Origin: SAR116 cluster bacterium
GTDB taxonomy: Bacteria > Pseudomonadota > Alphaproteobacteria > Puniceispirillales > Puniceispirillaceae
Assembly: GCA_004212735.1 (NCBI GenBank)
Contig: SHBD01000020.1
Span: 1 to 32,366, forward strand
Length of the DNA stretch: 32,366 nucleotides
Direction: 5' to 3'
Shown piece after piece: positions 1,434 to 23,140 of this stretch. Each line of letters begins with the position of its first letter. Within the stretch, counting starts at the first letter, position 1. Made by a program: the position numbers and the translations under genes. The notes under the pieces are model-generated. The model had not been told where the DNA came from, made no database searches, and saw only the letters and a list, made by a program, of their open reading frames with translations.

Positions 1434-1527
1434 GTGACGCCAAAACGGGTCACGGTTTGAAGATCGAAACAGCCGACTTGCTTGTTAAGGAGTCGGCGAC
1501 AACTCGCTTAATCATAAGGAGATGAAA
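1434..1527 (+). promoter_or_regulatory. ROSE-like RNA thermometer in the hsp20 leader
   Basis: Three hairpins can be drawn in the leader. The first is GTGAC/GTCAC (1434-1438 with 1449-1453). The second is a perfect 7-bp stem GCCGACT/AGTCGGC (1472-1478 with 1491-1497) with a 12-nt loop. The third is a start-proximal stem in which C1503, U1504, C1507, U1508 and U1509 pair with G1521, A1520, G1518, A1517 and A1516, leaving G1506 facing G1519. The last one carries the U(U/C)GCU box (TCGCT, 1504-1508) opposite the Shine-Dalgarno AAGGAG (1516-1521). That is the hallmark of ROSE elements, known from small-heat-shock genes of Alphaproteobacteria, where heat melts the stem and frees the ribosome site. 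Structure is inferred by eye, without folding energies. Confidence 0.6.
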
Positions 1528-1980
1528 ATGACTGTATTTACCACACCAATGGCACGCCAGTTTGTGGGGTTTGACTCACTGTTCGACGAGTTGAACAAAA
1601 TGGCGGAGCGCAAGGAATCAAACTATCCTTCCTACAATATCGCCAAAGACGATGATGAACATTATCGCATCGAAGTTGCCCTTGCCGGCTTTGCCTTGAA
1701 TGACATCAACATCCAGACAGAAAAGGGTGTATTGACGATTGAGGCCAAGAAAGAAGACGTCAAGGATGAAGCGACAGATAAATACATTCATCGGGGCATC
1801 GCCCAACGCGCCTTCTCAAAAATGTTCCGGCTTGCCGAATATATGAAGGTTGACGATGCGCAATTTGTCGATGGCGTCCTGACCGTGTTTCTGTACCGCG
1901 AGATCCCCGAGGCAGATAAAGCACGGCAGATCTTGATCAACAATCAGGCCAAGAGCCTGCCCAAAGCTGCGCAGGCCTAA
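1528..1980 (+). CDS. small heat shock protein, Hsp20/IbpA family
   Basis: This is an ATP-independent holdase that binds unfolding proteins in the cytoplasm and passes them to refolding chaperones such as ClpB/DnaK. The protein has 150 residues, a normal length. The alpha-crystallin domain runs from about residue 33 to 125, beginning near YPSYNI, with the signature A-x-x-x-G-V-L-T-V in its last strands (FVDGVLTVFL). A C-terminal I-L-I tripeptide (QILINN) would dock the oligomer. The ATG at 1528 is chosen because AAGGAG (1516-1521) lies 6 nt upstream. The in-frame ATG at 1522 would touch the ribosome site. The gene stands alone between a heat-shock-like promoter plus ROSE-like leader and a terminator. 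Confidence 0.93.
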   Translation: MTVFTTPMARQFVGFDSLFDELNKMAERKESNYPSYNIAKDDDEHYRIEVALAGFALNDINIQTEKGVLTIEAKKEDVKDEATDKYIHRGIAQRAFSKMFRLAEYMKVDDAQFVDGVLTVFLYREIPEADKARQILINNQAKSLPKAAQA

Positions 1981-2017: not shown

Positions 2018-2051
2018 AGCGGTGACCACCGTTCTCGGTGGTCGCTTTTTT
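2018..2051 (+). terminator. Rho-independent terminator of hsp20
   Basis: Arms AGCG+ACCACC (2018-2030, with a 3-nt bulge GTG) and GGTGGT+CGCT (2037-2046) enclose the loop GTTCTC and run into a T tract (2046-2051). There is no T tract in the reverse direction, so it serves the plus strand only. Confidence 0.85.
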
Positions 2052-4752: not shown

Positions 4753-7401
4753 TCAGGCAGAGCCGGCGACATCACCGGCGGCGTCGGACAATGCGCCCTT
4801 TAACTTGCCGTCCGCAGCAACGCCCACGCCGAATACCAGCTTATTGGTAACCGGATCAAGGCGCACCTCGACAACATCTCCATCGCCAAACCTGCCTGCC
4901 AGCAATGCCTCAGCAAGCGGGTTCTGCACCGCATTCTGAATGACCCGCTGCAATGGCCGCGCGCCAAACTGTGGGTCATAACCACGCAACGCCAACCAAT
5001 CTGCCGCAAGATCATCAAGGCGTAAACTGATTCCACGGTCAGCAAGACGCCCCGCCAGTCGGGCAAACTGGATCGTGACAATCGCCCCCATATCGCCCTG
5101 TGAGAGACGATGAAAGAGCAATATCTCATCAATCCGGTTCAAAAATTCGGGCCGGAACGTCGCTTGCACATCGCTCATCACGGCCGTGCGGGCCACATCC
5201 GAATCCTGATCATCATCAAGCGCCAGCAGATGGTCGGCGCCAATATTCGAGGTCAGCAGGACAAGCGTGTTGGCAAAATCAATGCGCCGTCCCTGGCCAT
5301 CGGTTAGATGTCCCTCATCAAGCACTTGCAACAGCACATTGAAAATGTCCGGATGGGCCTTTTCAATCTCATCAAACAGCACCACCTGATAGGGTCGGCG
5401 ACGCACCGCTTCGGTCAGGCTGCCTCCCTCCTCGTACCCAATATAACCGGGAGGCGCACCAATGAGACGCGCCACCGCATGTTTCTCCATATATTCGGAC
5501 ATATCGATCCGCAAAACGGCATCATCATTGTCAAACAGAAACTCCGCCAGAGCCTTGGCAAGTTCGGTCTTGCCCACGCCGGTGGGACCCAGCATCAGAA
5601 AACTGCCCATGGGCTGGTGCGGGTCAGCAAGGCCGGCCCGGGACCGGCGAATGGCATTGGCAACGGATGATACAGCTTCACTCTGGCCAATGATCCGCTG
5701 GCCAATGATTGCTTCCATGCCCAGCAGTTTTTCGCGCTCACCCTCCAGCATCTTGTCAACTGGAATACCGGTCCAACTGCTGATTACCGATGCGATATGC
5801 GGAGCTGTGACCTCTTCATCAACCAATTCTGACTCAGCCACCGCATCCTTGGCAGCAGCAAGTTCCTGTTCCAGCGCCGGTAATGTGGCGTAAGTGAGTT
5901 CAGCCGCCACCTCGAGTTTACCCTCGCGCTGTGCCACATCAAGATTATGGCGCTGATCCTCCAGCTGTTGCTGCAATTTGGCAACTTCGGCCATGCGGGC
6001 CTTGACCCCATCCCATGCTGCTGTCAATTCTGCTGAGCGCTGTTCAAGGATTTCCAACTCCCCGGCAATCGCCGCAAGCCGCTTTTCTGAAGCCTTGGCA
6101 TTCTCCTTCTGCAACGCCGCCTGTTCGATTTTCAACTGGATGATCTGCCGGTCAGCCTTGTCAAGATCAGCAGGCTTGCTATCGGACTGAATGCGCAGAT
6201 GGCTTGCCGCCTCATCCATCACATCAATTGCCTTGTCAGGCAGAAATCGCTCAGCGATGTAACGGTGCGAGAGACGTGCTGCCGCAATCAATGCATCATC
6301 GGTAATTCTCACGCCATGGTGCAGCTCATATTTTTCCTTCAGGCCACGCAGGACAAAAACCGTGTCCTCAACGCTTGGTTCATCAACAAACACAGGCTGG
6401 AACCTGCGTGTCAATGCAGCATCCTTTTCGACATATTGACGATATTCATCCAGCGTTGTCGCACCTATACAGCGCAGCTCGCCACGCGCCAAAGCCGGCT
6501 TCAGGAGGTTCGACGCATCCATCGCACCATCCGTCCTGCCTGCCCCAACGAGTTGGTGCATCTCATCGACAAACAAAATGACCTCGCCATCGCGTGATTG
6601 CACCTCCTTGAGGACGGATTTCAAACGCTCCTCAAATTCGCCACGATATTTTGCGCCGGCAACAAGCGCGCCCATATCAAGCGACAGCAGCGATTTATTG
6701 GCAAGCGCCTGTGGCACATCACCATTGATGATCCGCTGTGCCAACCCTTCGGCAATTGCGGTCTTGCCAACACCTGGTTGACCAATCAGCACTGGGTTGT
6801 TTTTGGTACGACGCGCCAAAATTTGTACGGTGCGGCGAACCTCGGCCTCGCGGCCAATCACCGGGTCCAGCTTGCCATTGCGCGCGGTATCGGTCAGATC
6901 GGTGGTGAATTTGCTCAGCGCTTCATGTGCCTCCTCAGCCATGTCACTGTCTGCGGTCCTGCCCTTGCGAAGCTCGGTAACGACACCGGCAAGGCGCACC
7001 GCGTCAACACCAGACTCACGCAGCAGCTTGCCGGTATCACCCTTGCTTTTCGCCATGGCAATCAACAACGCATCAACAGCCAAAAAAGAGTCCTTGAGTG
7101 ATTTGGACTCAGTCTCGGCCGCCTGCATAATCCGGGCAAGTTCCATATCCACCTGCATCTGGTCAGCCCCGCCGCCCGTCACTGACGGAATTGCCGCAAG
7201 CCCTTTGTCCAGACCTGAGCGAAGCGCACCAAGATCGCCACCTGCCCGGCCAATCAGATTGCGGGCCATCATATTGTCATCCGCCAGAATCGTAGACAGA
7301 ACATGCAGCGCGGTTAGCTTCTGGTGGTCAGCGGCAAGCGCCTCATTCTGTGCGGCAATCATCGCGTTACGCACAAGCGCGGTAAATTTATCTGTCTGCA
7401 T
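4753..7401 (-). CDS. clpB: ATP-dependent protein disaggregase ClpB
   Basis: This is a hexameric AAA+ unfoldase that, with DnaK, pulls polypeptides out of aggregates after heat stress. It has 882 residues, close to the family norm of about 860. In order: the Clp N-domain repeats (1-145); AAA-1 with Walker A GQPGVGKT (about 207-214) and Walker B VILFVDE (about 274-280); the charged coiled-coil M-domain typical of ClpB (about 405-525); AAA-2 with Walker A GPTGVGKT (about 603-610) and the Walker B motif VVLFDE; then the C-terminal D2-small domain. ATG at 7401 is chosen. The GTG one codon upstream is also possible, and AAGGAG lies at 7411-7416 on the complementary strand. A long leader (about 190 nt) separates it from a sigma-32-like promoter. 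Confidence 0.97.
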
Positions 7402-7595
7402 CACTCAACACTCCTTCATCAGCTGGCACCATTTGCTTGAATTTACCAGCCTTGTTGACGCCTCCCGGCCCCGCGTCCCGATGCTGGCAGCATAGCATAA
7501 ATCGGCAGGGACGAAGCCAGGCCAGATAGCCATGTGTCACGTGCTGGCTCATCCACCTGTCCGCACCAAGGCCTCACCTGGGCAGATGGTATGTG

Positions 7596-22865: not shown

Positions 22866-22880
22866 TTGGGGGCTCGATAC

Positions 22881-23085
22881 ATGGGTGGGGAGAGCCCGGG
22901 CAGGCGGCTTCGTTCGTCCTGTCACCGGCACCGAAGGAGCAATTCCCCAGAAACTCTCAGGTACCCGTACCCATTCATGTGAGCACTCTGGAAAGTGGCA
23001 CGGCAGTGTCCACCGACGGGGAACACCTGGTCCACTGATGGTTTGGGCCATGGTTAATCTCTCAGGTTCCGTGACAGAGGGGGTG
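22881..23085 (+). promoter_or_regulatory. tandem glycine riboswitch
   Basis: Two consecutive glycine aptamers lie in the leader of gcvT. Aptamer 1 is closed by P1 ATGGGT/ACCCAT (22881-22886 with 22969-22974). It holds the conserved GGAGAG at its start, CACCGAAGGAGCAA and CTCTCAGGTACC. Aptamer 2 is closed by CTCTG/CAGAG (22986-22990 with 23075-23079), with CACCGACGGGG and CTCTCAGGTTCC. The two are joined by a short linker, the classic arrangement in front of glycine cleavage genes, where glycine usually switches expression on. Confidence 0.93.
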
Positions 23086-23109: not shown

Positions 23110-23140
23110 GTCTTATATGAGGAAACCGAGGAACCCTGGA

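Follow-up and report, generated by a model that had tools for sequence, protein, structure and literature searches.

The ROSE-type RNA thermometers described in the literature lie in the 5′ untranslated regions of proteobacterial small heat-shock protein (sHsp) genes and consist of two to four hairpins, the 3′ one of which holds the Shine-Dalgarno sequence (SD) imperfectly paired to a U(U/C)GCU box. Two structures have been given for the G of this box, a G-G pair seen by NMR in the B. japonicum element and a bulged G in the crystal of another ROSE-like element (PMC11342760; this and the other sources given by PMC number are cited from excerpts). The role of the bulged G has been measured in other ROSE elements (PMC11342760, PMC4288164), and it matters for the opening of related ones (PMC11342760, PMC4288164, PMC12857270). 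The function of the 5′ hairpins is, according to those who have studied them, not fully understood (PMC3669281). Heating to as much as 50 °C leaves hairpin I, the 5′ hairpin of the P. aeruginosa ibpA leader, closed, and the SD hairpin on its own gives about 9-10-fold heat induction in two Pseudomonas species; breaking the base pairs of hairpin I led to derepression in Pseudomonas, and removal of the 5′ hairpins from the founding ROSE1 element is said to have reduced the response (PMC3669281).

We analysed a stretch of 32,366 nucleotides (the window), which is one contig (C13) of the 66 that make up the 2.49 Mb assembly of a SAR116-type alphaproteobacterium. Folding revealed a leader of three hairpins at 1434-1530, 5′ of an Hsp20 gene, which is very probably a ROSE-type RNA thermometer of that gene. 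All three hairpins lie on the forward strand. Hairpin I (1434-1453; GUGAC[G]CC-AAAAC-GGGUCAC, the bulged base in brackets) carries a bulged G at 1439 and is supported by folds, covariation and conservation of the bulge; hairpin II (1472-1497; GCCGACUU[G]CUU-GUU-AAGGAGUCGGC), with a bulged G at 1480, is supported by folds, covariation and a match to the Rfam model ROSE_3. In hairpin III (1503-1521), seen in the folds, CUC[G]CUU, which includes UCGCU at 1504-1508, pairs with the AAGGAG SD at 1516-1521. The multi-hairpin layout, the middle hairpin at 1472-1497 and the pairing of UCGCU with the SD had all been proposed in an earlier note on this DNA, and each was recovered by folding, the three-hairpin layout also by RNAalifold and by covariation. 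As to the extent of the leader, a three-hairpin unit stands, with the earlier layout corrected in that the 5′ hairpin at 1434-1453 belongs to the conserved unit. The G-G mismatch that the note had placed in the last stem was not recovered: all six SD bases are paired in the predicted fold and G1506 is a one-base bulge, so that the predicted structure has no such mismatch. With three hairpins, the SD in the 3′ one, a UCGCU box imperfectly paired to it around the bulged G1506 and, downstream, a gene with a PF00011 domain, the leader belongs by the literature definition to the ROSE kind, and would be expected to respond to heat.

The hsp20 gene (1528-1980, forward strand; PF00011, E=3e-17) starts at an ATG at 1528, 6 nt past the SD, from which residue onwards its orthologues align; an in-frame ATG at 1522 abuts the SD and is an improbable start. 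The top NCBIfam match of the protein was IbpB, at 123 bits and thus below the cut-off of 207. Its nearest named relatives, at 87-89% identity, come from SAR116-cluster alphaproteobacteria (L034 and L035), and the matches in a plasmid search with the protein were all below 60% identity. A sigma-32-like promoter, also claimed in the earlier note, is borne out by a -35 box, CTTGAA, at 1399-1404 and, 14 nt 3′ of it, a -10-like box CACCAAAT at 1419-1426, both on the forward strand and judged against what we take to be the sigma-32 (RpoH) consensus. CTTGAA precedes hairpin I in 27 of 28 SAR116-type leaders, a set from which one locus that had no upstream sequence (L024) and one distant paralogue with an unrelated leader (L027) had been dropped; CTTGA within the anti-SD region of L009, L013, L015 and L017 is an artefact, their true CTTGAA lying upstream. 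At the -10 place some relatives have CCCCATAT, CCCAAAT and similar sequences. The transcript would start at about 1431-1434, adjoining hairpin I, and is probably monocistronic, ending at an intrinsic-terminator-like hairpin with a T run (2021-2046, forward strand; 11 pairs in a pattern scan, a consensus match only). Elsewhere in the window, a ClpB-like disaggregase ORF of 883 aa (4753-7404, named by eye) is encoded on the reverse strand, opposite to hsp20 and 2.8 kb away from it, which makes the two disaggregation partners near neighbours. Tandem glycine riboswitch aptamers (22877-23081; 58.8 and 41.5 bits, both above the gathering score) stand directly 5′ of an ORF at 23117 that, by eye, we take to be gcvT-like.

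The leader was compared with the curated ROSE families by covariance-model search (cmscan) of positions 1200-1700. Only ROSE_3 (RF02523) matched at E≤10, and it did so over its full length, spanning hairpins II and III and leaving hairpin I outside (28.6 bits, E=6e-4, below the gathering score of 43); ROSE (RF00435) and ROSE_2 (RF01832) gave no match in this region at E≤10. By Rfam's curated thresholds the leader is thus not a member of ROSE, ROSE_2 or ROSE_3. ROSE_3 also gave two weaker matches at other places in the genome (L002, E 1.04; L003, E 2.29); these do not exceed chance, as every one of the 14 control genomes yields matches at E≤10 in the same search. With ROSE_3 the leader shares a penultimate hairpin with a bulged G, an anti-SD strand of the CUCG-CU type also with a bulged G, and the register of SD and start codon; its stem sequences differ, and the match leaves out hairpin I. 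ROSE_2, the family of E. coli and other enterobacterial ibpA leaders, likewise has 5′ hairpins with a bulged G in the 5′ arm followed by CUC[G]CUGA paired to the SD, but with other stems and spacing. The rhizobial ROSE resembles the leader in a consensus first hairpin with a single unpaired G and in a UUGCU anti-SD box, whereas its second hairpin is free of bulges and its SD hairpin is longer, with an extra lower stem. Outside these families, the short ROSE-like elements of Pseudomonas ibpA have in common with the leader a U(U/C)GCU:SD 3′ hairpin, a stable 5′ hairpin and an sHsp gene, but consist of two hairpins instead of three (PMC3669281). In ROSE-G, too, the anti-SD strand of the SD hairpin has a bulged G; this element differs in its CUGCU box, in a second, opposing bulged G in the SD strand and in its reported position 5′ of ABC transporter genes (PMC12857270). 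The leader has UCGCU, an SD strand free of bulges and hsp20 downstream, and so departs from the ROSE-G pattern, in which CUGCU goes with bulged Gs that face each other across the two strands. A fourU thermometer was set aside, as no four U stand opposite the SD, the anti-SD strand being CUCGCUU.

A covariance model of our own, R1, was built from 16 leaders of the window's family (alignment A3, from which L019 and every sequence outside that family were left out). Searched against its own genome, R1 gave a single match at E≤10, the hsp20 leader. Against 101 relatives, including the window's genome, it gave 44 matches in 43 genomes at E≤0.05, 42 of them at an hsp20 start (coordinates compared by eye), the remaining two being a match at the edge of a contig (G036) and a weak one located elsewhere (G081:C16, E=0.04). 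An hsp20 match was present in 71 of the 101 relatives, 42 with and 29 without an R1 match, the stricter filters having lost at least two relatives (G062 and G068) whose leaders do match R1 (as L047 and L048). In many of the 29 the hsp20 is a distant one (E near 1e-25). In a class-wide sample R1 matched 11 of 385 genomes at E≤0.01, three of them from the window's family (≤5e-10) and eight from other families (1e-4 to 5e-3), which suggests that the close form is a SAR116 feature with weaker relatives elsewhere. Among such relatives, five leaders from other alphaproteobacterial families with genomes of 1.3-1.4 Mb (L117-L120 and L123; R1 E 1e-4 to 1.4e-3) show by eye a short form, with one bulged-G hairpin 5′ of the SD hairpin. 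Matches to the Rfam models were rare in our samples under stricter filters: ROSE in 8/289 and ROSE_3 in 7/289 genomes of the class, and ROSE_2 in 7/299 of the phylum.

The three hairpins are upheld by covariation. In A3, 98.6% of the cells are paired, and 27 cells are changed on both sides against 8.4 in shuffled alignments. A larger alignment, A4, comprised 50 leaders: the window, 45 of 80 named loci and four unnamed ones (L011, L013, L018 and L023), picked as SAR116-like after the leaders had been read, several being named only Alphaproteobacteria, Proteobacteria or the like. Here too 98.6% of the cells are paired, with changes on both sides in 16 of 23 pairs, and double-changed cells number 160, where shuffled alignments give 40.7 and slid ones 7-31, counts that are biased towards the model because A4 was fitted to R1. 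RNAalifold, to which no structure was supplied, returned the same three hairpins from A4, with both-side changes in 15 of 22 pairs. Such changes affect 6 of the 7 pairs of hairpin I and 9 of the 10 of hairpin II, and just 1 of the 6 pairs of hairpin III (99.3% of cells paired), as expected for a helix tied to the ribosome. AGGAG is kept in all 50 leaders and the U-Y-G-C-U box in 49. The bulged base is G in 50/50 leaders in hairpin I and in 49/50 in each of hairpins II and III, and entropy averages 0.89 bit over the columns paired in hairpins I and II, against 0 and 0.14 bit at their bulged Gs. The single exception in hairpin III (L018, 1404-1506) has A for G and has also lost much of its anti-SD box, while its hairpins I and II keep their bulged Gs; the one in hairpin II (L077, 2912-3006) has T in the bulge column of this model-fitted alignment.

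Folding at different temperatures was less informative. The predicted opening of the SD (ViennaRNA) was low across 10-42 °C and just 0.03 at 42 °C, and for the leader of E. coli ibpA, which is an established thermometer, it was 0.07 at 42 °C; in-silico melting is thus not diagnostic, given that a proven element stays shut as well. The earlier note had staked its reading on a hit with the Rfam ROSE models and on a ribosome site closed in the cold. The hit was obtained, although below the gathering score, and the SD is predicted to be closed in the cold; an opening at 42 °C did not emerge from the folds, nor did it for E. coli ibpA. When the bulged G1506 was deleted in silico, the opening of the SD predicted for 60 °C fell from 0.44 to 0.03, in agreement with the role measured for the bulged G in other ROSE elements. 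Together, the covariance match, the covariation, the conservation of the U-Y-G-C-U box and of AGGAG, and the CTTGAA box sustain the note's proposal of a ROSE-like thermometer.

The three hairpins share one core, Y[G]CY/RGR, in which a lone bulged G of the 5′ arm is flanked by a Y-R and a C-G pair: GUGAC[G]CC..GGGUCAC in hairpin I, ..CUU[G]CUU..AAGGAG.. in II and CUC[G]CUU..AAGGAG in III. To look beyond SAR116 we used 82 leaders, those of the 80 named protein-found sHsp loci and of E. coli ibpA and ibpB, dereplicated to 37. Minimum-free-energy folds of these whole leaders, SD hairpin included, contained 63 5′-arm G bulges, against 2.7 in dinucleotide shuffles and 3.3 per 37 in 1110 random windows of the same loci. 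With the SD hairpin removed, at least one hairpin with a 5′-arm bulged G was present in 33 of the 37 leaders, against 4.3 in shuffles, and the seven other bulge types (5′ A, C and U; 3′ G, A, C and U) were near chance. Upstream core hairpins numbered one in 27 leaders, two in 6 and none in 4, so that outside SAR116 the core is usually seen in the SD hairpin and a single upstream one, not in all hairpins. Another set, found by protein across the phylum with E. coli IbpA as the query (50 leaders from a longer list, from which 20 extra class-A leaders were picked by hand; possibly sharing species with the first set), had the core in 36 of 46 dereplicated leaders, against 7.8 in shuffles. Among 20 hand-picked class-B-like leaders (L196-L215; here meaning a match only to about residues 13-128 of E. 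coli IbpA), a Y[G]CC..GGR hairpin was found in 12, against 4.7 in shuffles. In these class-A and class-B-like sets, for which removal of the SD hairpin used one fixed distance, the core is looser than in the first set, the pair above the bulge being C-G in 24/36 and 9/12 leaders, respectively, and mostly G-C in the rest. No upstream 5′-arm bulged-G hairpin was seen in 4/37 leaders of the first set, 10/46 of class A and 8/20 of the class-B-like leaders; some of the latter seem by eye to carry the core on a shorter stem or within the removed part. Four of the ten class-A cases (L151 and L153-L155) belong to one genus outside the Alphaproteobacteria; they keep an auugcuua box 5′ of the SD, and some have other arms (cuuagucg..cgacuaag in L151). 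A larger set had the core in 51 of 62 dereplicated leaders, against 8.2 in shuffles, a figure that is partly circular because 29 of the 112 leaders before dereplication had come through bulged-G covariance models; the protein-found sets (37; 46 and 20) are free of this circularity. In the E. coli ibpA leader (NC_000913) the core can be read in both 5′ hairpins and in the SD hairpin, the fold showing the two 5′ ones, and the ibpA-ibpB intergenic leader (L114 2399-2509, reverse strand) has a bulged-G hairpin 5′ of its SD hairpin. The Rfam consensus structures of ROSE, ROSE_2 and ROSE_3 each include one unpaired G in a hairpin that precedes the SD hairpin, so the feature is already present in public models. 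We found no earlier mention of bulged Gs in ROSE 5′ hairpins in the literature searched, itself available in part; the founding papers (Nocker 2001, Chowdhury 2006) were outside that scope and may have noticed them.

Could the repeats be something other than a set of thermometer hairpins? ROSE sequences were themselves initially taken for a transcription-factor site (PMC4166951), and the inverted repeats might be read as DNA operators for a heat-shock repressor. In the SAR116 leaders, however, pairing is kept while the stem sequence changes, G-U pairs included, and a G bulged on one side alone is at odds with the symmetry of an operator; this covariation leaves the operator reading extremely unlikely. 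The repeats are also, to our knowledge, unlike the CIRCE operator. The second AAGGAG raised another question. It is indeed present at 1487-1492, within hairpin II, as the earlier note had pointed out, and could in the window's sequence form an alternative helix with 1503-1509, acting as a decoy or switch strand that captures the anti-SD box on heating. GGAG occurs in that arm of hairpin II in just 17 of the 50 leaders, though, and is absent from the other 33; moreover, the helix between anti-SD box and decoy was computed at -1.9 kcal/mol compared with -17.1 for the native fold at 37 °C, and at -1.1 compared with -14.8 at 42 °C, a computation that covered forms free of pseudoknots. Because the second copy is not conserved and its helix falls far short of the native fold in stability, we reject the decoy, which retains a negligible probability.

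As to the role of hairpins I and II, simple melting of all three hairpins is unlikely in view of the results on the 5′ hairpins of Pseudomonas and ROSE1 (PMC3669281). Hairpins I and II may instead be merely a stable 5′ scaffold that protects the mRNA or aids its folding, the bulged G being an ancestral folding accident. This is quite possible, if not probable: hairpin II alone acts as a thermometer in two Pseudomonas species while hairpin I of P. aeruginosa remains shut to 50 °C (PMC3669281), and hairpin II of the leader studied here is predicted to be far more stable than hairpin III (-13.6 and -3.5 kcal/mol at 37 °C). It sits less well with the contrast between the variable stems and the nearly invariant bulged Gs and with the clear enrichment of just one of eight bulge types, the 5′-arm G, which together point to selection on the bulge itself; a bulge conserved within stems that otherwise vary speaks for a tertiary contact or for recognition. 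A candidate partner is Hsp20 itself, oligomers of which might bind the bulged-G hairpins of the leader as a putative multivalent site and repress their own translation until titrated off by unfolded proteins. E. coli IbpA binds the ibpA 5′ UTR and represses its own translation in a manner dependent on R93, and seems to prefer structured RNAs such as thermometers over any mRNA (PMC10474464). The bulged-G core, for its part, is present in all three hairpins, recurs 5′ of the SD hairpin in other proteobacterial sHsp leaders and occurs in the leaders of both E. coli ibpA and ibpB. All 42 SAR116-type proteins checked have an arginine matching R93 of E. coli (GIAxR motif), which says little, since such an arginine is common in sHsps. 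Against Hsp20 binding, the class-B-like leaders also have the core, and the Pseudomonas ibpA SD hairpin deprived of hairpin I keeps both its induction and its repression at 25 °C (PMC3669281), so that we regard autorepression by Hsp20 as improbable. In a broader form, the ROSE unit might be a set of hairpins on one core, Y[G]CY..RGR, rather than a single thermosensing hairpin accompanied by bystanders, and the hairpins might serve as a common module for recognition, the likeliest partner being the sHsp itself; this too we hold with little confidence.

Returning to the leader as a ROSE-type thermometer, its operation may be pictured as follows. RpoH (sigma-32) would transcribe hsp20 from a start adjoining hairpin I. 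At normal temperature hairpin III would pair UCGCU with the SD and keep ribosomes off; under heat stress the bulged G1506 would weaken this helix enough for it to open and for translation to start. This would give control by heat of both transcription and translation, as the earlier note had suggested, with hairpins I and II, built on the same bulged-G core, presumably holding or assisting the fold.

No earlier report of a ROSE thermometer in SAR116 appeared among the literature matches listed, and the leader would extend these thermometers to the SAR116 ocean bacteria, in a form that falls below the Rfam thresholds. Of wider interest is the bulged-G core that SAR116 and related leaders carry in hairpins upstream of the SD hairpin. 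If autorepression by Hsp20 were true, the leader would sense aggregation as well as heat, and if the core were a recognition module, the sHsp leaders of Alpha- and Gammaproteobacteria would be combined heat and aggregation sensors with an identifiable RNA code. A single conserved nucleotide offers a simple test both of the function of ROSE 5′ hairpins and of the recognition of mRNA by IbpA.
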